NCBI GenBank assembly: GCA_020073385.1
Contig: JAIQFH010000002.1
Coordinates: forward strand, 124,001 to 188,000
Direction of reading: 5' to 3'
Source of the DNA: Terriglobia bacterium
GTDB lineage: Bacteria; Acidobacteriota; Terriglobia; Terriglobales; Acidobacteriaceae
Length of the DNA stretch: 64,000 nucleotides
Of this stretch, positions 5,486 to 55,772 are shown piece after piece (position 1 is the stretch's first letter; every line of letters begins with the position of its first letter). Both the position numbers and the translations under genes were made by a program. Under the pieces are notes generated by a model. That model was given only the letters and a program-made list of their open reading frames with translations, was not told the origin of the DNA and searched no databases.

Positions 5486-5883
5486 CCACGGCGGGACAAA
5501 AGACACGCAGAGAACATCGCAGGTCTCGTAAGCGCGGAGAAATTCCCTTCGCCAATCCTCCGCGGTCATCCCATACAGTTTCAAAGCCGAATTCCTGGCG
5601 GGCTGCGGAAAAATTCTCTTTCGCTCGGTCTTTGGGTAGGGCACGACTTCAGAGGTTGCGGAAAAACTCCTGAATGCCGGTGGTAACGTGGAAGAGCGGC
5701 GCTTTAGCGCCGCGTAAAGCCTCTTCAGTCGTTGCCACTAAGTCGTTGAGAATGAGACCGCGCTTTGAGCGTCTGAGTGCAGTCTTGCCCGTTCGGCGGC
5801 TTTTTCAGCAGCCTGCTGAGAGAGGGCTTCGGCAATCATGCATTTTCTTGGAAGCACCCCTGGCAGGACTTACGACCGAACTC
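5486..5883. other. Intergenic region between convergent genes, with a REP-like palindrome
   Basis: No convincing gene. The region separates two convergent genes and carries the palindrome at 5686-5719, listed separately. The rest shows no recognisable feature. Confidence 0.5.
5686..5719. repeat. REP-like palindrome, GAAGAGCGGCGCTTTAGCGC family
   Basis: GCGGCGCT (5696-5703), TT, AGCGCCGC (5706-5713) form a perfect 8-bp stem, preceded by GTGGAAGA and followed by GTAAAG. A near-identical unit occurs at about 36019-36050, and a related one (GTGGAAGAGCGGCGAGC) at 35984-36000. All lie in intergenic DNA. Confidence 0.7.
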
Positions 5884-6813
5884 TCATGGGTGTCGATGGA
5901 GTACGTGCGTCGCGATATCGGGCCAGTACTCGCGAAATACATTCGTTAGAGCATCGCGGCCCATCGCCCAGCCGAACCTCACAGCGAGCGCTCCGACGGT
6001 GCGGTCGGCCTTGGGGTAGTAGGTGGTGGAAATACCTTGCGCCATGGCGCGGCCGAAGACTTCCGAGGCGTTAAAGGTATTCTTCCCGTGGTAGTCCGGA
6101 GTAATCAGGATTCTCGTCGCAGCATAGACTCCCCGCTTCAGGAAGGGTCCCTCACCCTTCGCATAGTAGCGCTCGTCCTCATGCAGTACACTTGGCAGCG
6201 CAAAAATGACGAGATAATTGCCATCGGTTTTGTCCACAAAACCACGCCAGTAGTATCTGCCAAATCCGGCCACACCTTCGCCCAGTGCCGGATGCGCATC
6301 GCTCGTCTCGGCCAGCAGCGACGTGATCCCTACGAAGACGAAGGATGAGTAGTCGAAGCTGTTCTTGGTAGCAAGGACAAAAGCCTGCTTGGGTGTGGGC
6401 GGAGGAGGCATGGCGCCCGCGCTTACGGCGCGGAAGTTGGGCATCACTCCCAGAATCCTCTTAGGCTGTTGCTTGGAAGGGGCAACCGATTTGTTAGCGG
6501 TTTCGACGGCAGCGGCAATCGCGCCGGCAGAAGTGGGCGATTCTGTCATCGTTGCCGATGGCGTTTGTGGCGCAGTCGTTTGCGATGAAGAGTCTTGAGC
6601 TGCAGCGGGTGTGTCCGATGGTTTCTCTGCAGGCGCGCTGGGCGTCGTTGCTGGCTCCTGGGCTCGGCTCAACAGAGGCAGCATCCACACGAGCGCGACA
6701 AAGACAGCAGTGCTAATTGAAAACTTTGTAAACAAGAATCCCCCCGAAACAATCCTTCCCCATCTGAAATTGCGATTTGTGTCTATTGTACTGGTTCGAC
6801 CAGATGCCACCAC
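5884..6813 (-). CDS. Exported conserved protein of unknown function
   Basis: Up to 309 residues. A hydrophobic signal sequence ending LLSRAQE leads to a Pro/Ala/Thr/Ser-rich linker (to about residue 120), then a folded domain with many aromatic residues (SFDYSSFVFVGI, GRYYWRGFVDKTDGNYLV, DERYYAKGEG) that may associate with the outer membrane. ATG 6813 leaves a long polar stretch before the signal; TTG 6735, preceded by GGGGGA, gives a classical signal peptide and may be the real start. It is the last gene of the minus-strand block of metal-uptake genes, 20 bases behind the permease if ATG 6813 is used, so it may be cotranscribed. No family is recognised beyond resemblance to other acidobacterial exported proteins. 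Confidence 0.7.
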   Translation of the reverse strand: MVASGRTSTIDTNRNFRWGRIVSGGFLFTKFSISTAVFVALVWMLPLLSRAQEPATTPSAPAEKPSDTPAAAQDSSSQTTAPQTPSATMTESPTSAGAIAAAVETANKSVAPSKQQPKRILGVMPNFRAVSAGAMPPPPTPKQAFVLATKNSFDYSSFVFVGITSLLAETSDAHPALGEGVAGFGRYYWRGFVDKTDGNYLVIFALPSVLHEDERYYAKGEGPFLKRGVYAATRILITPDYHGKNTFNASEVFGRAMAQGISTTYYPKADRTVGALAVRFGWAMGRDALTNVFREYWPDIATHVLHRHP

Positions 6814-47299: not shown

Positions 47300-48145
47300 T
47301 CATTCCTTCAGGTCGACGTGCTCGACGTTCTCGATGGGGAGGCCGAGGAATCGTTGTCCGAGGCGGCGAAACTTTTCGGTGGAATCGGTGGCGAAGAACT
47401 TCAGGCGAGGTGCGGAACGGCGTTCTTCCACACCGGAATCAGAATCCGGCAGCAGTTCCTGGAAGTGGGTGGAAACGGCCCGAGCGGTTGATTCGGCGGA
47501 ATCGACGATGCTGACGTGAGCTGGTGCCACGCGACGCAGCAGAGACTTCAACAACGGATAGTGCGTGCAGCCAAGCACCATCGTGTCGGCATCGTGGAAT
47601 CCATCGGCAAACGCTTCCGCGAGGTAGATCTGCGCGACCTGTTCGGTGACCGAATGCTCAACCCAGCCCTCTTCGACGAGCGGAACGAGCAGGGGACAGG
47701 CCTTCTCGCGCGCCTGCAGGCCTCGGTTCTCGAGTGCTTTCCGGTAGGCATGACTACTGACGGTAGCTTCGGTTCCGATGACGACAACCTTGCGATTCTT
47801 TGTGGCGGAGGATGCGGCCTCGGCACCGGGTTCGACGACTCCTACGACGGGGACATGCGCTGCGGCGCAGATTCTGTCGAGAGCCAGAGCGGTTGCGGTG
47901 TTGCAGGCGATCACCAGCAACTGGGCGCCTTGGGATTCGAGAAAGTGCGACGCCTCGACTGCGTAACGCGCAACGGTCTCGACCGATTTGGAGCCATAGG
48001 GAAGGCGGGCCGTGTCGCCGAAATAGGCGTATTCAGCGTCGGGCACGACTTCAAGTAAAGCTTTAAGGACGGTAAGGCCGCCGAAGCCGGAGTCGAATAC
48101 GCCGATTGTTGGACGACGGGTCGTATTCAGGATTTTCGTGTGCAC
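47300..48145 (-). CDS. murI: Glutamate racemase
   Basis: 281 residues from GTG 48145; the frame is open much further upstream, but that would cross the VapB gene and extend far beyond family length. It interconverts L- and D-glutamate for peptidoglycan. Family motifs: GVFDSGFGGLTVLK, the AYFGDTARLPYGSKS block, LLVIACNTATALAL with the first catalytic Cys, and MVLGCTHYPLL with the second. Start region overlaps the palindrome at 48134-48162, so transcription may interact with the VapBC operator. The start is inferred from length and family, not from a clear Shine-Dalgarno. Confidence 0.93.
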   Translation of the reverse strand: MHTKILNTTRRPTIGVFDSGFGGLTVLKALLEVVPDAEYAYFGDTARLPYGSKSVETVARYAVEASHFLESQGAQLLVIACNTATALALDRICAAAHVPVVGVVEPGAEAASSATKNRKVVVIGTEATVSSHAYRKALENRGLQAREKACPLLVPLVEEGWVEHSVTEQVAQIYLAEAFADGFHDADTMVLGCTHYPLLKSLLRRVAPAHVSIVDSAESTARAVSTHFQELLPDSDSGVEERRSAPRLKFFATDSTEKFRRLGQRFLGLPIENVEHVDLKE

Positions 48146-48162
48146 GAAATTAGTGTACACTA
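48134..48162. promoter_or_regulatory. Palindromic operators in the murI/vapBC divergent region
   Basis: TTTCGTG-TG-CACGAAA (48134-48149) and the perfect palindrome TAGTGTACACTA (48151-48162) lie side by side just before the antitoxin start and across the murI start. The GTGTACAC core is common in VapB-type autoregulated operators. Confidence 0.55.
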
Positions 48163-48167
48163 TTCTT

Positions 48168-48389
48168 GTGAAGAATATCACTCTAAGCGCCGATGAGCAT
48201 CTGATCGAGCGGGCACGCCAGACTGCACGAACAGAACGTCGCACGCTGAACGACGCTTTTCGCGAATGGCTTGAAGAGTACACCTCGCGCAACGGGGATC
48301 TCGAGCAACACGATCGACTCATGAACCGGCTTCGCGGGCACGTGGTTGCAGGCCGAAAGTTCACTCGCGAAGAAATGAATGAACGATAG
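48168..48389 (+). CDS. vapB: VapB-type antitoxin, ribbon-helix-helix
   Basis: 73 residues from GTG 48168 (an ATG at 48138 lies in frame but inside the palindrome). The N-terminal strand NITLSADEHLIERARQTART followed by RRTLNDAFREWLEEYTS is a MetJ/Arc-type ribbon-helix-helix, which would bind the palindromes just upstream and repress its own operon. The rest (HDRLMNRLRGHVVAGRKFTR) would wrap the toxin. The stop overlaps the toxin start by 11 bases, a common sign of translational coupling. Confidence 0.85.
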   Translation: MKNITLSADEHLIERARQTARTERRTLNDAFREWLEEYTSRNGDLEQHDRLMNRLRGHVVAGRKFTREEMNER

Positions 48390-48801
48390 CTTTTTCCTCG
48401 ACACCAACGTGTTCGTCTATAACTTCGACGCGCGCGAGCCGGCGAAGACGCAGCGTGCGTCGGAGTTGATTCGCAGCGCTGTCGGCAGCAAAAGAGGGGT
48501 GGTGAGTTATCAAGTGGTGCAGGAATTTTTCAACATCGCGCTCACCCGCTTCGCCAAACCATTCTCAGTTCGCGAAGCTGAGGATTATCTATCGCTGACA
48601 TTCAAGCCCATTCTCGCAGTGCATTCTTCACCGCGACTGTTTCTAGAGGCTTTGCACATCCAAGCGCAACATCAGTTCTCCTGGTACGACGCATTAATCG
48701 TCGCGGCGGCGCAGCAGGCGAATTGTTCGATCTTGTACACCGAGGACATGCAACACGGACGGCGAATCGGCGAACTCAGGATCGAGAATCCCTTCCGTTG
48801 A
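48379..48801 (+). CDS. vapC: VapC-type PIN-domain toxin (predicted ribonuclease)
   Basis: 140 residues with the acidic residues of a PIN nuclease: Asp8 in SFFLDTNVFVYNFD, the mid-chain Glu in YQVVQEFFNIALTRF, Asp in FSWYDALIVAAAQQ, and Asp in LYTEDMQHGRR. Such toxins cleave tRNA or rRNA and are held inactive by the antitoxin. The pair stands alone between murI and the GH39 gene. Confidence 0.9.
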   Translation: MNDSFFLDTNVFVYNFDAREPAKTQRASELIRSAVGSKRGVVSYQVVQEFFNIALTRFAKPFSVREAEDYLSLTFKPILAVHSSPRLFLEALHIQAQHQFSWYDALIVAAAQQANCSILYTEDMQHGRRIGELRIENPFR

Positions 48802-48852: not shown

Positions 48853-50346
48853 ATGCAAATTCGGATACTGGTGGTTTCGGCGGTTTGCCTCTTGACGATC
48901 TCTATCCAGGCGCAAGACTCAATTGAAAGGGTAAGCATCGATGCGCATGCTCCGCGCCGTCCGTTTCCTCACTTCTGGGAGCAGATGTTCGGCTCGGGAC
49001 GCGCGATCCTGACGCTGCGCGAAAGCTATCGCAGCGATCTGCGCGAGGTGAAGAAGGTCACGGAATTCCGCTACGTGCGGTTCCATAACATTCTTCACGA
49101 TGAAGATGGCGTTTACGACGAAGACGAGCAGGGCAATCCGATCTACAACTTTTCCTATGTAGACCAGATCTACGACGGGCTGTTGGCGAATGGTGTGCGC
49201 CCGTTTGTTGAGATCAGCTTTATGCCGAAGAAGTTGGCAGCGCGGCAGGATGTGCACCCGTTCTGGTACAAGCAGATCGTTTCGCCACCCAAGGATTATG
49301 CAAAGTGGGATGCGCTGATGCGGGCGCTGGCGCAGCATCTGATTGACCGCTACGGAATTGATGAGGTCGCACAGTGGTATTTCGAAGTGTGGAACGAGCC
49401 GAACATCGATTTCTGGACGGGAGAGCCGAAGCAGGCGACCTACTTCGAGCTCTACGATCACACGGCGCGCGCGCTGAAGGCGGTGAATTCGAGGCTGCGC
49501 GTGGGCGGTCCGGCGACATCGTCGGCGCACTGGGTCGACGATTTCATCAGGCATGCAGCTGCGGCGAATGTTCCGATCGATTTCATCTCGAGCCACAGCT
49601 ACGGCGACGACACGGTCGAGGATTTGTTCGGGACCCACGAGGACATTCCGATGGATCAGCGTGTCTGCCGGTCGATCAGGAAAGTGCACGACCAGATCGA
49701 GGCGTCGGCTCGTCCCAATCTGCCATTGATGTGGACGGAGTGGAATGTGCCTTCGTTCGGGCCGCTGCATGCGCGGGATACGGAGTATGTAGGTGCGGCG
49801 CTGGCCGACGATATCCGCCAGTGTGATGGGCTGGTGAAGATGGTGTCGTTCTGGACGTTCAGTGACGTGTTCGAGGAGAACGGGCCGAAACGCGAACCGT
49901 TTGACGGCGGCTTCGGGCTGATTGCGATGGGCGGGATCAAGAAGCCGAGTTACACGGGATTTGCGGTGCTGCACAAACTGGGGCAGGAGAGGATTGCACA
50001 GGATGCGTCGAATGTGCTGGTCACGCGCAGAGCGGACAGTAAGTTAGTGATCGCGGCGTGGAATCTCGTGGACCCGGGCCGGAAGGGAAGTGCTGAGAGC
50101 ATCGAGTTCGACATCAGCGGAGTGACGCCGAATGCTGCAGTGTTAGTGACTCGCGCTGATGCTGAGCATGGGAATAGTCTGGCCGCGTACAGGCGGATGG
50201 GAAGCCCGACTTACCCCACTCGGAAGCAGGTGGCTGAAATCAATCAGGTCGTTGAGCAGTCCAAGCCGGAGGAATTGCATCTGACACACGGCGCGATCAA
50301 GCTCTCTGTGCCTGTGAATGGAATTGTGCTGCTGGAACTGAAGTAG
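48853..50346 (+). CDS. Glycoside hydrolase family 39 (beta-xylosidase/iduronidase-like)
   Basis: 497 residues: a signal peptide (ILVVSAVCLLTISIQAQ), then a GH39-type TIM barrel. Catalytic residues by family pattern are the acid/base Glu182 in YFEVWNEPNIDFWTG and the nucleophile Glu296 in LMWTEWNVPSFG. Other typical pieces are FRYVRFHNILHDE, VRPFVEISFMPKKLA and FISSHSYGDD. A C-terminal beta-sandwich follows from about residue 400. Secreted or periplasmic enzyme that releases terminal sugars from plant or bacterial polysaccharide. It stands alone, so the substrate cannot be inferred from neighbours. Confidence 0.9.
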   Translation: MQIRILVVSAVCLLTISIQAQDSIERVSIDAHAPRRPFPHFWEQMFGSGRAILTLRESYRSDLREVKKVTEFRYVRFHNILHDEDGVYDEDEQGNPIYNFSYVDQIYDGLLANGVRPFVEISFMPKKLAARQDVHPFWYKQIVSPPKDYAKWDALMRALAQHLIDRYGIDEVAQWYFEVWNEPNIDFWTGEPKQATYFELYDHTARALKAVNSRLRVGGPATSSAHWVDDFIRHAAAANVPIDFISSHSYGDDTVEDLFGTHEDIPMDQRVCRSIRKVHDQIEASARPNLPLMWTEWNVPSFGPLHARDTEYVGAALADDIRQCDGLVKMVSFWTFSDVFEENGPKREPFDGGFGLIAMGGIKKPSYTGFAVLHKLGQERIAQDASNVLVTRRADSKLVIAAWNLVDPGRKGSAESIEFDISGVTPNAAVLVTRADAEHGNSLAAYRRMGSPTYPTRKQVAEINQVVEQSKPEELHLTHGAIKLSVPVNGIVLLELK

Positions 50347-50407
50347 GTTCACCACAGAGGGCACAGAGGTTCACAGGGGCAAACTCTCGCGATGGAAACA
50401 TTACGTT

Positions 50408-51652
50408 TTATTTTGATCGTACGGCTTCTACCAACCTTGCTCCGGCTGAGGCCGAGACCCCGCAGCACGGGCCGGGTGGAATCGGGGCTCCGTGAGGGCA
50501 CGTGCGGGGATGGCCCAGGAAGGTACAGATCTTGTCGGTGGCCTCGGGCGACAGGATGTGTTCGAACTTGCAAGCCTGTTCCTCGATTTCCGTCTCGCTG
50601 TCCATGGCGAGACTGTCGGTAAAAAGGCGCTCGGCAAGGCGATGACGGCGAATGATGCTGCCGGCGCGCTCGCGTCCGCGCGGGGTCAGCTCGACGATCA
50701 GGGTGCCGTCTCCGGATGAGGCGGCTACGGGCTTCAGCGCCTCGTGGCAGGGATTCACAAACGGTTTGTGATCGTGCGCTTCTGGTGGATGGGGAGCGGA
50801 AACCACCAGTCCCAATTCGATCATCTTTTCGATCGCGAGGCTCACCGGCAATGCGCCGTGGACTTCCATGCGCTCGACTTCCGCGATTTCCCCGTTTTCG
50901 GCGAGCACCCAAAGCTCTTCCAGAACCTCATCCAGTTGCTCTTCATCCGCCATCGAGAAGATTTCTTGCGAGGCGATCTTTCCGTGATGCAGCTCAATGC
51001 GGCGATCGGCGAGCCGCGCAACTACGGGGTCGTGGGTCACCATGACGATCGTGCGGCCTTGCTGATGAAACTCGCGCAGCAGGCGCAGGACGATTTCTTC
51101 ATTCTGCGCGTCGAGATTGCCGGTAGGCTCATCGGCGAGAATGATCCTCGGATCGTTGATCAGGGCGCGCGCGATGCACACCCGCTGCTGCTCGCCGCCG
51201 GAAAGCTGGGATGGCAAATGATGCGCCCGATCTCCCAGTCCTACGCGCGTCAAAGCTTCGACGGCTTCCTTCTGGTCGGTCATGCTGTGGAAGTACTGCG
51301 CCAGCATGATGTTTTCGACGGCGGTAAGGAAGGGGATCAAGTGAAACTGCTGGAAGATGAATCCGATTTTCTCGGCCCGTACGCGATTCAATTCGGCGGC
51401 GGAAATGCCCGCGACGTTCTGGCCGTCGAGCCAAATCTCGCCGGACGACGGACGATCAAGGCACCCAATCAGGTTGACCAGCGTCGATTTCCCCGAGCCC
51501 GACGGACCCATGATCGACAGCCATTCGCCCTGAGCCACGTGCAACGAGATGTGGTCGAGCGCATGGATCGAGCCGGCGCCGTTGTCCTTGCCCGTGCCAT
51601 TGCCCGACTCTTTGGCGGGATAAAGTTTGGTGACGTTCTTGATCTGAATCAT
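50408..51652 (-). CDS. ABC ATPase fused to a DtxR/MntR-type metal-dependent repressor domain
   Basis: 414 residues. Residues 1-232 are a LolD/MacB-type ABC ATPase: Walker [10 protein letters not shown] (49-57), signature LSGGEQQR (150-157), Walker B ILADEP (171-176), H-loop His207. Residues ~235-390 are a DtxR-like module: a winged helix ([20 protein letters not shown], then [17 protein letters not shown]), an insert of about 30 residues with His and Cys (287-303), and the metal-binding/dimerisation segment [52 protein letters not shown]. Ligand positions of DtxR present are His337, Glu341, Cys361, Glu364 and His365. It is the last gene of the iron operon and starts 1 base after the permease stop. 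It probably drives the two permeases; a direct DNA-binding role is inference. Confidence 0.9.
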
Positions 51653-51653
51653 T

Positions 51654-52847
51654 TCACTCGCCCCTCAGTATGACCGCAGGCTGCACGCGTCGCAACAGAG
51701 AGATCGGCAGAATTGCCGAAATCAGAGTTACTGCCATGCTACCCGCCAATACGATCGGCAGCACGCCCATGCGCGGCACGACCGGAGCGTGGAAATTCGC
51801 GCGGCCGATCCAGGCGGCGATGCCAATGCCGACCAGAAATCCAATCATCGCACCGGTCGCACCCAGAGCGGCGGCTTCAGCGGCGAAGAATCCGTTGAGC
51901 AGGCGTTCGGATGCCCCCAGGGCTTTCATGATGGCAAAGTCGCGACGGCGGTCGAAGACCCATCCCATGAGGGTGGAGAGCACGCAGAGTGCTGCGGTGA
52001 GAATGATCAGCGCGGCGGCTGCCAACAACGTGGCTCGAGTTTTGCCCAGCACGCGCGCTTCGCCTTCCATGATCTGTCGAACGGGACGGACTTCGGCGGC
52101 AGGAATGGCCTGCGCGAGCTGAGTCATGACTGCCGCAACTTCCGCTGCAGAACCGCTGGCGGCGACTTCAATCGTGGATGGTTGCACGCCCGCCCAAGAG
52201 ATGAAGTCGGCGAGCGAAACGTAAAGTCGGCTATCTTCGGCCGCGCCCGTTTGTACGGTCCCTGCCGGAGTAACGTGCAACTTCCTGCCCTGAAAACTCA
52301 GATCGAATGGCTGATTCTTCGGCGAAACCAAAGGCAAAGCTCGGACGCCGACCAATACTGGGTGCTCCACCTCTCCCCGGTTTTGGGAGAGGTGAGGATT
52401 TTCTGTTGCCGGCCAAGCGCTCACCGACCACCAGTGGTCCAGTTGCTTCACGCGATCAAACTCGACACCGGCAACCACGATCGGCTGGCCGTCAGCCGTT
52501 CGGGCTACGACTAATCCAAACGGCGCTGCGATGCCGCGTCCCGCGAGCGCGGAATCGACTTGTGCGAGAGTTCCGTCGGGAAGGGAAGCGCCATCCTTTC
52601 CAACCAGGATGATGTTCGCGCCGTAATTGCGAAACTCGCGCTGCAGCTTAGCCTGGACGTCGACGTATAGATTGAGCATGGCCGTTGCGACTGCAGCCGC
52701 GACGACCATGGCAAACAATGCGGAGGCCGCACGGCCGCGGCGCAGGACCGCGGCACGCACCAGCATGCGCAGGAACATCGAGGTATGCGGAGCGTGGGCC
52801 CGGGTAGCCGCAAGATCCCGCGCCTGATGAGACATAGGTGCGCTCAC
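51654..52847 (-). CDS. FtsX/MacB-type ABC permease of the iron operon (second)
   Basis: 397 residues with the MacB layout: a first helix (LFAMVVAAAVATAMLNLYV), a periplasmic core of about 200 residues (FRNYGANIILVGKDG, APFGLVVARTADGQPIVVAG), and three C-terminal helices (LLAAAALIILTAALCVLSTL, MGWVFDRRRDFAIMKALGAS, LAGSMAVTLISAILPISLLR). It starts within the previous permease gene (ATGA overlap at 52844-52847). It would form a heterodimer with the 52844-54109 permease driven by the ATPase. The two are paralogues but clearly distinct. Confidence 0.9.
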   Translation of the reverse strand: MSAPMSHQARDLAATRAHAPHTSMFLRMLVRAAVLRRGRAASALFAMVVAAAVATAMLNLYVDVQAKLQREFRNYGANIILVGKDGASLPDGTLAQVDSALAGRGIAAPFGLVVARTADGQPIVVAGVEFDRVKQLDHWWSVSAWPATENPHLSQNRGEVEHPVLVGVRALPLVSPKNQPFDLSFQGRKLHVTPAGTVQTGAAEDSRLYVSLADFISWAGVQPSTIEVAASGSAAEVAAVMTQLAQAIPAAEVRPVRQIMEGEARVLGKTRATLLAAAALIILTAALCVLSTLMGWVFDRRRDFAIMKALGASERLLNGFFAAEAAALGATGAMIGFLVGIGIAAWIGRANFHAPVVPRMGVLPIVLAGSMAVTLISAILPISLLRRVQPAVILRGE

Positions 52848-54109
52848 AGTTCACCTCGCAGGGCGAATACCGGATCAAGGCTGACGGCACGCCGGATGGC
52901 CATCGCGCTTCCGGCAAAAGTGACGATCACGGCGATGGCGAGGATCACCGGCAAGAGCACGGGAGAAATCGAAATCTGGGAATTGAAGATCGAGTGGCCG
53001 ATTTGATGGGCGAGAGCCGAGCCAATTCCAAAACCTACGGCACCGCCGATCAAGGCCATCAATGCCGCCTCGGCGAAGAACACTGAGGCCACGGCGAGCT
53101 TTCCTGCGCCCAGTGCTTTCATCAAACCGACCTCAGCGCGTCGTTCGAAGATGGCCGTCGCCATCGCGGCGGATACGGCGAGTCCAGACGCGAACAACGC
53201 CGCGAGCGTAATCAGAAAGATCAGGCCTTCGATGCGTGTCAGCACCGCGCCTTCGTTCTGCGCGACCTGGCGAATCTGCTCGGCGTGGGAGTGTGACATG
53301 GCTTCGGTGAGCTGCAACGCGATCGCCTGCGGGTACGGCGTGCAATACCAGCGGTCGTAGATCGCTCCGGACAAGCTCTTGGGATCGCGGCGGGCGAAGG
53401 CATCTTCCGGCTTGGTGAGGGCGCTGACGTAGACGCGCTTTACGGCGTCGGGCTTGCCAAGGATTTCTTGCGCCAGGCTCAGGGGCGCGATCACTTCGTC
53501 GTCCTCTGCGCCGCCAGTCGAGAGAATCCCATCAATGCGGCACTGGCGGCCAGAGATCGTAATCGTATTGCCGGGTTTCTGGTTGAGTTTGGCGGCCAGT
53601 CGTTCGCCAATCAGAACGTCGCGTGAATTGTCGTCCGGCCACGCACCCGAGACCTTCCACCAGGGATAGAGAGTCTTGGCTCCGGTGACGAATTCTTCAT
53701 TTCCGTAGGAGACCTTCTTAGCGAAGTAGGTTCCCGTTAAGGTGACATCCTGCGGTTTTCCTTCATGCGGAATCGCAGCGCTCACGGGAAGGATGGGGGC
53801 AAATCCGACAATGTTGTTGTGCCAGAAGATCCCCTTGATCTTGGGAAGGTCAGCTTCGCTGAGGAATGCGCCGTCGGTGGGCGGCTTCAAGTTGACTCCA
53901 CCGATTTCCACGTCTAGGGAATCTTCCTGCGGAGTAACGACGAGATTCGCGCCAATCGTCCGCAGTTCGCGGTTGATTTTGTCGCCGATATCGGTGGCGA
54001 CGGCGATCATGGCCGTGGCTACGGTGACGCCAAGGGTAATCGCGGCTCCGGCCAGGACCTTGCGCCGCTTCTGCCGCCGGAAGGATTCGTATACGAGTCG
54101 GACGAACAT
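52844..54109 (-). CDS. FtsX/MacB-type ABC permease of the iron operon (first)
   Basis: 421 residues with an N-terminal helix (LAGAAITLGVTVATAMIAVA), a periplasmic MacB-like core (RTIGANLVVTPQEDSLDVEI, WWKVSGAWPDDNSRDVLIGE, GRQCRIDGILSTGGAEDDEV) and the FtsX helices (FLITLAALFASGLAVSAAMA, FERRAEVGLMKALGAGKLAV). ATG 54109 is 3 bases after the FTR1 stop. In the Campylobacter p19 and FetMP type loci, such permease pairs accompany FTR1 and DUF2318 in iron uptake. Confidence 0.9.
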   Translation of the reverse strand: MFVRLVYESFRRQKRRKVLAGAAITLGVTVATAMIAVATDIGDKINRELRTIGANLVVTPQEDSLDVEIGGVNLKPPTDGAFLSEADLPKIKGIFWHNNIVGFAPILPVSAAIPHEGKPQDVTLTGTYFAKKVSYGNEEFVTGAKTLYPWWKVSGAWPDDNSRDVLIGERLAAKLNQKPGNTITISGRQCRIDGILSTGGAEDDEVIAPLSLAQEILGKPDAVKRVYVSALTKPEDAFARRDPKSLSGAIYDRWYCTPYPQAIALQLTEAMSHSHAEQIRQVAQNEGAVLTRIEGLIFLITLAALFASGLAVSAAMATAIFERRAEVGLMKALGAGKLAVASVFFAEAALMALIGGAVGFGIGSALAHQIGHSIFNSQISISPVLLPVILAIAVIVTFAGSAMAIRRAVSLDPVFALRGEL

Positions 54110-54112
54110 CGG

Positions 54113-55366
54113 TTACTGTTGCGCGAACATGCGGCTTCCGCCCGCGATGTCGGCCTCCTGAATGATGATGGCGTCGGCGGTCTGCGTGGCTTTCAGCGGC
54201 ACCGGATTGCAGCCACCTGCCGTGCCTACGGACTGCGGATTAATCGGAGCGGCGCAGTTCTTGCAGATCACTTCGTTGCCTTTCTTGTAGAAGCCCACCG
54301 CGCCGCAGATTTCGCAGGCGTCGAATACCGTGGCGATCTTGCCGTCGGGTTTCTGATAAAGCCAGAAGCGGACTGGAGTTCCGTTCTCCTTCGCCTGGTA
54401 ACGGTGCAGATCGCCGTCGGCGACCTGCGAGAGCGGAATCTTTATTTCGCCGTTGGTGAATGTGACTTCTGTAGCGGGCGACAGCGCGCTGACATTCTTG
54501 GTGTAAACGAATTCGAGAGTGACCATGGCGATCAGCAGGAAGGAGAACGTATAGACCGATCCCATCCAGAGACGCTCGCGGCGGGCCGTCCACTCGGCCT
54601 TGCGGCGCTCTGCCGAGGATGCCGAGGCATCGAGAGCAGGCGCGCGACGCTTGGCCTCAAACAGCACCATCAGGGCGGCCATAGCGAAGATGGTGACAAA
54701 GAAGAACCAGTCGTTGCTGACGATGGGACCAATGATGGCCATCTCGCGCTTGGAAGAGGCAATGAAGCCGCTTTCGGAGAGCTCGTGCAGGCCGGAGATG
54801 ATCAGCTGAGCCGCCACTAAAAACATGATCGCGGTCGTGACCCGGAAGAACTTCTGCAGGTTGACGCGCACGCTGCCCTTCACAAAGATCACACCAAAGG
54901 CGATCGCAGCGATCAGGCCGAGCAAGGTTCCCAGGAAGCTCATCAATTCGGTGGAGTTCAGGCTGACACCGGCCAGGATGAGCACCGTCTCTGCACCTTC
55001 ACGGAGCACCATGAGGAAGATGAAGATGAACAGGCCGAACCACGCATCGTTTCCTGCGAGCAGGCCGACTTTGCCTTCGATCTCACCCTTCATCTTGCGG
55101 CCGGTCTTCATCATAAAAACGACCATCGTCACGACGAAGAAAGCGGCGACCAACTGAACCCAGCCCTCAAACACGTCTTCGTTCAGGTGGGCACGGGAGA
55201 TCACGACGGCGACTCCGATGCTTCCCAGAAACGCCGCCCCCAGGGCGGCATAGACGGTCTTGCGCAGCTCTGCGCGCCCGATCTTGGTCAGGTAGGCCAG
55301 GGTGATGCCGACGATCAGTGCTGCCTCGACCCCCTCGCGCAGGGTGATGATGAACGCCTGTAACAT
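54113..55366 (-). CDS. FTR1-family iron permease fused to DUF2318
   Basis: 417 residues. The first ~285 are a multi-helix iron permease with both FTR1/EfeU signatures: REGVEA (Arg10-Ala15) and REGAET (Arg122-Thr127), whose Glu residues carry ferric iron. After a last helix comes a C-terminal DUF2318 domain: GEIKIPLSQVADGDLHRYQA, FWLYQKPDGKIATVF, then CEICGAV, ICKNCAAPI and GGCNPVP. The cysteines probably hold an iron-sulfur or other metal centre. FTR1 and DUF2318 are separate proteins in Campylobacter. It is the first gene of the operon, with a Fur-like box and a CRP-type site upstream. No P19/FetP gene follows. Confidence 0.93.
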   Translation of the reverse strand: MLQAFIITLREGVEAALIVGITLAYLTKIGRAELRKTVYAALGAAFLGSIGVAVVISRAHLNEDVFEGWVQLVAAFFVVTMVVFMMKTGRKMKGEIEGKVGLLAGNDAWFGLFIFIFLMVLREGAETVLILAGVSLNSTELMSFLGTLLGLIAAIAFGVIFVKGSVRVNLQKFFRVTTAIMFLVAAQLIISGLHELSESGFIASSKREMAIIGPIVSNDWFFFVTIFAMAALMVLFEAKRRAPALDASASSAERRKAEWTARRERLWMGSVYTFSFLLIAMVTLEFVYTKNVSALSPATEVTFTNGEIKIPLSQVADGDLHRYQAKENGTPVRFWLYQKPDGKIATVFDACEICGAVGFYKKGNEVICKNCAAPINPQSVGTAGGCNPVPLKATQTADAIIIQEADIAGGSRMFAQQ

Positions 55367-55480
55367 GCCTTAGATCTCGTTCCTTCCTGAACTTAACTCT
55401 TCGGATGTGCTGCGACCCGCCCGGCATCGGGAGGTATCGGGAAAGCCATCGAAAGAGCAGTTTTCAGGCCCGGATGATTT

Positions 55481-55504
55481 TGAAAATGAATTTCAATTTC
55501 AATT
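55481..55504. promoter_or_regulatory. Fur-like AT-rich repeat upstream of the iron operon
   Basis: TGAAAATGAATTTCA (55481-55495) is a 7-1-7 inverted repeat with one mismatch and resembles the Fur box core TGATAATNATTATCA. It is followed by a second TTTCAATT unit. It lies about 115 bases before the FTR1 start and would overlap a promoter read on the minus strand. Confidence 0.5.
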
Positions 55505-55557
55505 GTAAGGATATGCTTCTGCGGCTAAAACCGTCAATCCGGACCCTCACAACCACG

Positions 55558-55573: not shown

Positions 55574-55652
55574 CGGTAGGATTTCCGGCCTGAATGGGGA
55601 TCGGGAAGTCATCGGAACGTAGCCCCCCCTGGGACTGGCTTCCTCTGCAGTC

Positions 55653-55710
55653 CTCTGTGACCTCGGTGGTGGGCAGACGACTCAGAGGATTCACCACAGA
55701 GGTCACAGAG
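55653..55710. repeat. Inverted repeat, CTCTGTGACCTCGGTGGTG type
   Basis: CTCTGTGACCTCGGTGGTG (55653-55671) and CACCACAGAGGTCACAGAG (55692-55710) pair with one mismatch. It lies between the M48 gene's stop and the iron-operon promoter region. Same style as the other CACAGAGG repeats. Confidence 0.75.
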
Positions 55711-55772
55711 GGCCACAGACGAAACTCAACTGCACCAAGTCAAAATCCCGACCCTGAGCATCTCACAATCGA

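Follow-up and report, generated by a model that had tools for sequence, protein, structure and literature searches.

The 64,000-nucleotide (nt) stretch of Terriglobia bacterium DNA analysed here (the window, in whose full length all coordinates are given) carries on its minus strand an FTR1-type iron-import operon whose final gene encodes an ATP-binding cassette (ABC) ATPase fused to a DtxR-derived domain. We propose that this C-terminal tail, whose DNA binding has likely been lost, is probably a built-in sensor of cytoplasmic iron that slows ATP hydrolysis, and with it import, once the cell is well supplied with iron. The genes of the operon, and the domains of the fusion, are as follows:

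54113..55366, minus strand: FTR1 iron permease fused to DUF2318 (FtrD-like); open reading frame (ORF) list, Pfam and motif check
52844..54109, minus strand: first permease, MacB/FtsX-type (MacB_PCD plus FtsX); ORF list and Pfam
51654..52847, minus strand: second permease, FtsX-type; ORF list and Pfam
50408..51652, minus strand: ABC ATPase–DtxR-like sensor fusion, 414 amino acids (aa); ORF list, Pfam, homologues and operon context
50960..51652, minus strand: residues 1-231, the nucleotide-binding domain, most similar in structure to MJ0796, MacB and LolD
50687..50950, minus strand: winged-helix domain, residues 235-322, degenerate and acidic, with a predicted DtxR fold but no PF01325 signature
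50702..50791, minus strand: insertion in the wing, about residues 288-317; alignment with distant fused proteins
50462..50686, minus strand: metal-binding domain, residues 323-397, with H337, E341, E357, C361, E364 and H365 plus a cysteine motif

Results

The fusion is a single chain that closes an iron-import operon

An earlier note on this DNA had described four tightly packed genes, and all four minus-strand ORFs agree with it, as do their junctions, neighbouring genes being, in transcription order, 3 base pairs (bp) apart, overlapped by 4 bp and 1 bp apart. The gene order is FTR1-DUF2318, FtsX, FtsX and ATPase. Both REXXE motifs are present in the FTR1-DUF2318 protein, together with five cysteines in DUF2318 (two CXXC motifs plus one), and the assignment of the locus as an FTR1-type iron-import operon is supported by its sequence. 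The proposed likeness to FetMP/p19-type loci stands for the association of FTR1, DUF2318, two FtsX permeases and an ATPase, but not for P19 or a following thioredoxin. P19/FetP (PF10634) gave no matches across the whole genome (8.2 Mb in 140 contigs), whereas the control genome of Haloferax volcanii did give a match, and the gene next to the ATPase does not encode a thioredoxin-like FetE/FetF, in a search confined to the locus.

In the fusion, Pfam places ABC_tran over residues 32-177 (E 4e-36), and Fe_dep_repr_C covers residues 323-392 (E 8.7e-27). The ATPase half has Walker A, signature, Walker B and H-loop motifs, and its closest homologues belong to the MacB/LolD group. As had been claimed, the frame is uninterrupted, a single 414-aa ORF without a stop between the halves, and the domain-database check that the note had suggested, run here, found both domains in the one chain. 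With residues 232-414 as query, 5280 proteins score at E <= 1e-5 among 7999 scored candidates, and in precomputed Pfam assignments for the best 120 of these, 117 carry both domains and three (228-337 aa) have PF02742 alone. Including the window we count 91 fused loci, the 90 others (76 from genome_contigs and 14 from other genomes) containing many close relatives and therefore not being independent; FTR1, DUF2318, permease and ATPase lie upstream in 76 of the 90, and in the remaining 14 a contig end intervenes. Since homologues carry both domains and the fused loci keep the operon, we rejected an assembly error or chance joining as the source of the frame.

A conserved metal-binding domain follows a degenerate winged helix

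A fold search with the entire fusion returned ABC ATPases throughout, and the C-terminal part was therefore folded alone and searched separately, which predicted a winged-helix fold of the DtxR kind. PF02742 scores 93.4 bits against a cut-off of 27. The DtxR metal ligands, which we take to be H79, E83, C102, E105 and H106 (H79 and C102 also appear in PDB titles), have candidate counterparts that are strongly kept among the fused proteins, E341, C361, E364 and H365 in 90 of 90 and H337 in 86. The domain also contains a cysteine motif, C376-x8-C385-x10-C396-C397, in which all four residues are near-invariant among the fused proteins, and the motif is present in 237 of 240 homologues among the matches listed. 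Across distant families the candidate ligands and this motif are far better kept than the remaining C-terminal part. Identification of the fused domain as a DtxR-type metal-sensor domain is supported, and it would be expected to bind metal.

The claim of a complete DtxR/MntR-like winged helix plus metal-binding domain holds for the metal-binding domain and for the predicted fold, but not for the sequence signature of the helix-turn-helix. Nothing was reported for PF01325 in the window fusion up to E 10 (HMMER filters drop most matches above 0.1) and PF01325 was likewise unmatched in five other fused proteins; as a positive control, the canonical DtxR of the same genome matches it at 46.6 bits. 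The helix-turn-helix segment of the fused proteins is strongly acidic, in a charge comparison with unfused and canonical DtxR rows (18 and 21 rows, respectively) that uses pattern-cut segments of unequal length (52-87 aa for fused, about 60 for the others) in which L123 was skipped, the L152 segment is short, and the unfused row L129 does not adjoin FeoB. Recognition-helix columns differ between the 11 distant fused proteins (49-57% identical overall, among the 90) and the near ones, and residues 289-312 of the wing are gaps in all 11. It is likely, judging from these features, that the DtxR-derived domain has lost DNA binding.

The operon has a Fur-like operator or a Fur-family neighbour

Two features upstream of FTR1 bear on transcription:

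55481..55502, minus strand: Fur-like operator TTGAAATTGAAATTCATTTTCA, with overlapping 7-1-7 repeats; box score and genome-wide site search
55474..55537, minus strand: pair of sigma-70-like promoter matches, judged by consensus alone, one of which overlaps the operator

With up to three mismatches, the 22-bp operator recurs just once elsewhere in the genome, where it ends 29 bp ahead of the start codon of a fur gene. Its 15-bp core also precedes the operon in genomes G084, G073 and G121, and in G084 it precedes the fur gene too; at the other exact core sites (G000 contig C68, G084 C1 and C9, G073 C2, G026, G147 and G074 C157) no clear iron genes were seen by eye. A Fur-like box scoring at least 11 of 14 is present in 45 of 71 upstream regions (window included), compared with 16 of 1420 shuffles. 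We rejected the box as a universal feature, as nine of the 11 distant fused operons and ten operons of the sister genus g4 score no higher than 9 of 14. A Fur-family gene adjoins FTR1 in nine of the 11 distant operons, on the same strand in eight and divergent in G192, and in the remaining pair, L134 and L135, box-like sites score 10 and 11 of 14.

The DtxR consensus scores no better upstream of the operon than in shuffles (9.48 versus 9.89). An AT-rich MntR-like consensus does beat shuffles (11.28 versus 9.72), but its matches overlap the Fur-like box in the window and in most top rows; because of this overlap the score was not counted as independent, and an MntR-like operator was rejected. 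Transcription of the operon would be set separately, with Fur acting at the operator or the adjoining Fur-family gene supplying the regulator.

One fusion event is enough to account for the fused set

Of 88 metal-binding domains placed in a tree, the 54 from fusions group in a single clade (support 99/94), so that a single fusion event is sufficient, with the proviso that the domains were hand-chosen, the tree rests on 81 columns and its outgroup branch is very long. In 108 of 199 sampled genomes of the phylum there is some match to the C-terminal part, the majority unfused by score and frame length; flanks were taken for the higher-scoring matches, giving 34 stretches with the window genome included. 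The genome_contigs scan, by query peptides, covered the best 80 of 109 loci, every one titled acidobacterial, and four of these were excluded from the fused count, L064, L082 and L111 because they begin too close to a contig end and L084 because its frame is broken before the domain.

Named close relatives of the window are Acidobacteriota, Sulfotelmatobacter included. Nine proteins among the matches listed have an organism name, eight of them acidobacterial and one (P0083) labelled Candidatus Aquilonibacter, a genus of Vulcanimicrobiota. P0083 is fused and 87% identical in the C-terminal part, and its label reflects either gene transfer or a mislabelled metagenome bin. With this label, and a scan limited by query peptides and to the best 80 of 109 loci, restriction of the fusion to Acidobacteriota is not established. 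The viral_contigs scan contained no relative of the fusion, and a viral origin was rejected.

The sister genus g4 keeps the operon without the sensor domain

The operon is kept in ten genomes (G036, G049, G061, G094, G103, G112, G147, G155, G163 and G195) of another genus in the family, g4. The ATPase is plain in nine, and at the tenth locus, L194, no ATPase was found within the stretch. Fur-like genes in eight g4 genomes give no more than 32% to the C94-type Fur, compared with 78-88% in G084, G073 and G121 (the g4 side comprises eleven stretches from the eight genomes, and not every weak match was taken). Sensor domain, Fur-like box and, in the eight genomes checked, C94-type Fur appear to have been lost together while the FTR1 operon was kept; loss of Fur is a possible explanation for loss of the box.

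Most unfused relatives examined lie after FeoB

We also identified 19 unfused relatives, the better-scoring of the phylum sample and some of them near-copies, which are 47-67% identical in the metal-binding domain. At 18 of these loci the domain is preceded on its own strand by an FeoB match whose end lies 179-521 nt away, a spacing that leaves room for little beyond the relative's own N-terminal part; L129 is without FeoB. The positions are:

L119-L128, L130, L131, L142, L147, L148 and L150-L152, and also L161 at 5839-6498: DtxR-like gene after FeoB

The FeoB-linked relatives have a degenerate helix-turn-helix and the same kind of cysteine motif as the fusion, but are encoded by a separate gene, lack the ATPase start and end in a FeoA domain (at the C-terminus in three of three proteins tested with Pfam). 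On plasmid pPRO1 of Pelobacter propionicus, feoB is followed by a gene annotated as a 'metal-dependent transcriptional regulator', whose product contains PF02742 and FeoA and is unmatched by PF01325. FeoA of Bacteroides is described as contacting the FeoB G domain (PMC8980893). The DtxR-FeoA protein, although annotated on pPRO1 as a transcriptional regulator, is possibly an FeoB partner.

The FTR1 operon and FeoB rarely co-occur. An acidobacterial FeoB query at E <= 1e-30 finds no match in 23 of 24 genomes with the FTR1 operon, the 24 being drawn from 27 with a near-full-length FTR1-DUF2318 match (G147, G011 and G039 were left out); the exception, G132, has both import systems and both versions of the sensor. 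Since relatives are found beside FTR1 and beside FeoB, the domain accompanies importers of two unrelated kinds, and its occurrence behind FeoB in other lineages, there in degenerate form and joined to a FeoA domain, gives it the look of a general importer-gating module.

Sequences flanking the operon

Beyond the ATPase, on the opposite strand, is a GH39 glycosidase gene (48853-50346). In the region 48138-48801, an 83-aa ORF that matches nothing in Pfam and, after it, a gene for a PIN-domain protein (PF01850) resemble a toxin-antitoxin pair; they adjoin a glutamate racemase-like gene at 47300-48364. A dispersed short repeat, TTCACCACAGAGGNCACAGAGG, is present on both operon flanks (50348-50369, 55652-55673 and 55690-55711). 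It has 129 matches in the genome at up to two mismatches on both strands, compared with none for a reversed-pattern control, and some copies form inverted pairs.

Discussion

The earlier note left two routes by which iron could act through the fused domain, stopping the ATPase directly or repressing the operon. The evidence favours direct control of the ATPase, and repression less so, because the segment that would contact DNA has degenerated and is acidic, and because the operon has a Fur-like operator or, in its distant counterparts, adjoins a Fur-family gene. A plausible scheme is that Fe(II), or an iron-sulphur cluster on the extra cysteines, would bind the sensor domain of each of the two ATPase copies; metal binding would then pair or lock these sensor domains, much as DtxR dimers are stabilised by metal, and the locked pair would keep the ATPases apart in the manner of methionine in MetNI and molybdate in ModABC, such that FTR1-mediated uptake would halt without waiting for transcription. 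We infer four elements of this scheme: that the domain binds iron, that binding alters the ATPase, that the sign is inhibitory, and that domain pairing is the lever.

Several observations weigh against this proposal. H337 is replaced by glutamine in four of the 90 fused proteins, and the winged-helix fold is predicted to be retained, leaving room for DNA binding. The Fur-like box is missing in all ten g4 operons (best score <=9 of 14), and the joint loss of box and domain there would also fit a domain that itself reads the box. The sign of the control could also be that of an accelerator, and in Campylobacter the contribution of the ABC part of the Fet system is described as unsettled, a supply of reducing power having been proposed (PMC10783030).

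In a different role, the domain would be an iron acceptor, or a redox or Fe-S switch, that activates the ATPase or couples it to incoming iron, as an accelerator or chaperone. The near-invariant cysteines beyond the DtxR-type ligands, and their recurrence among the homologues listed, would suit such a role, as would the redox link suspected for DUF2318 and the Fet cluster (PMC10783030). DtxR relatives are sensors, though, and both the sister genus g4 and E. coli SE15 run the operon with a plain ATPase, so that the domain is dispensable for the basic cycle; we regard this role as unlikely.

A working DtxR-type autorepressor, acting at the membrane or after proteolytic release, as YtgR of Chlamydia is reported to be released from YtgC, seems more doubtful still. 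There is precedent in transporter-DtxR fusions that repress their own operon (PMC5599777), and the predicted winged helix and the parallel absence of box and domain in g4 are consistent with it. Against this, the segment is strongly acidic and without the PF01325 signature, near fused proteins and the 11 distant ones differ in their recognition-helix columns, a fur gene elsewhere in the genome is preceded by the box as well, FTR1 has a Fur-family neighbour in nine of the 11 distant operons, and the upstream DtxR-box score is not above shuffles. That the domain is just a dimerisation or stability element left from gene fusion is very improbable, for while PF02742 is described as a dimerisation and metal-binding domain, conservation of the candidate ligands and cysteine motif far exceeds that of the other C-terminal residues, even across distant families.

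Several known systems resemble the window locus. The FetMP-FetABCDEF and FetMP-Fls systems of Campylobacter and E. coli have the same FTR1, DUF2318-type protein, two FtsX permeases and ATPase in the same order, and the first permease of the window operon is 40% identical to plasmid-borne E. coli copies; the window differs in having FTR1 and DUF2318 as a single chain, a sensor domain on the ATPase (that of the SE15 Fet locus is 231 aa and has none) and no P19 found in the genome. With DtxR, IdeR and MntR the fusion has in common the metal-binding domain, ligand positions and predicted fold, but it is joined to an ATPase, has lost the helix-turn-helix signature, is acidic, has extra cysteines and lacks a third SH3/FeoA domain. 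MetN and ModC likewise carry a regulatory-type domain at the C-terminus of an uptake-system ATPase, and their C-terminal domain pairs are described as able to hold the ATPases apart (PMC10710835); in the window the regulatory fold differs, the ABC type is MacB/LolD, the sensed ligand would be iron, and inhibition would be by analogy. The same source names transporters of methionine, molybdate and Mg as subject to direct feedback and, for FeoB, speaks of FeoC-directed turnover (PMC10710835).

The earlier note knew of no described protein with this fusion, and for an ATPase joined to a DtxR-like domain we too found none in the open literature; a transporter-DtxR fusion is known, in Chlamydia YtgC-YtgR. 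There it is a permease, not an ATPase, that is fused, YtgR is reported to be released by proteolysis and to bind DNA, and orthologous fusions are reported in 11 phyla (PMC5599777). An acidobacterial locus in our sample (L181, G015 contig C34) likewise has an ABC-3-type permease, judged by eye, fused to a DtxR-like domain in YtgCR-like fashion, with a helix-turn-helix segment charge of +2. Open-access literature, searched only in part for exactly this combination and with subscription papers and preprints mostly outside its scope, yielded neither an ABC ATPase with a DNA-blind-looking DtxR domain nor the FeoB-linked sister. Permease-DtxR fusions and ATPases with C-terminal sensor domains are both already known.

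Bacterial iron uptake is mostly explained through transcription, by Fur and DtxR. It is quite possible, although we advance it tentatively, that one branch of the DtxR family gave up DNA and became a clip-on iron gauge, perhaps with an iron-sulphur or iron-cysteine site, that throttles FTR1 importers and, through FeoA, FeoB importers. If so, the fusion would be a clear example of a transcription factor becoming a transporter subunit, its repressor domain turned allosteric brake; the plain ATPase of g4 is a natural deletion of the sensor domain, and the FeoB-linked version would suggest a role for the FeoA-bearing protein.

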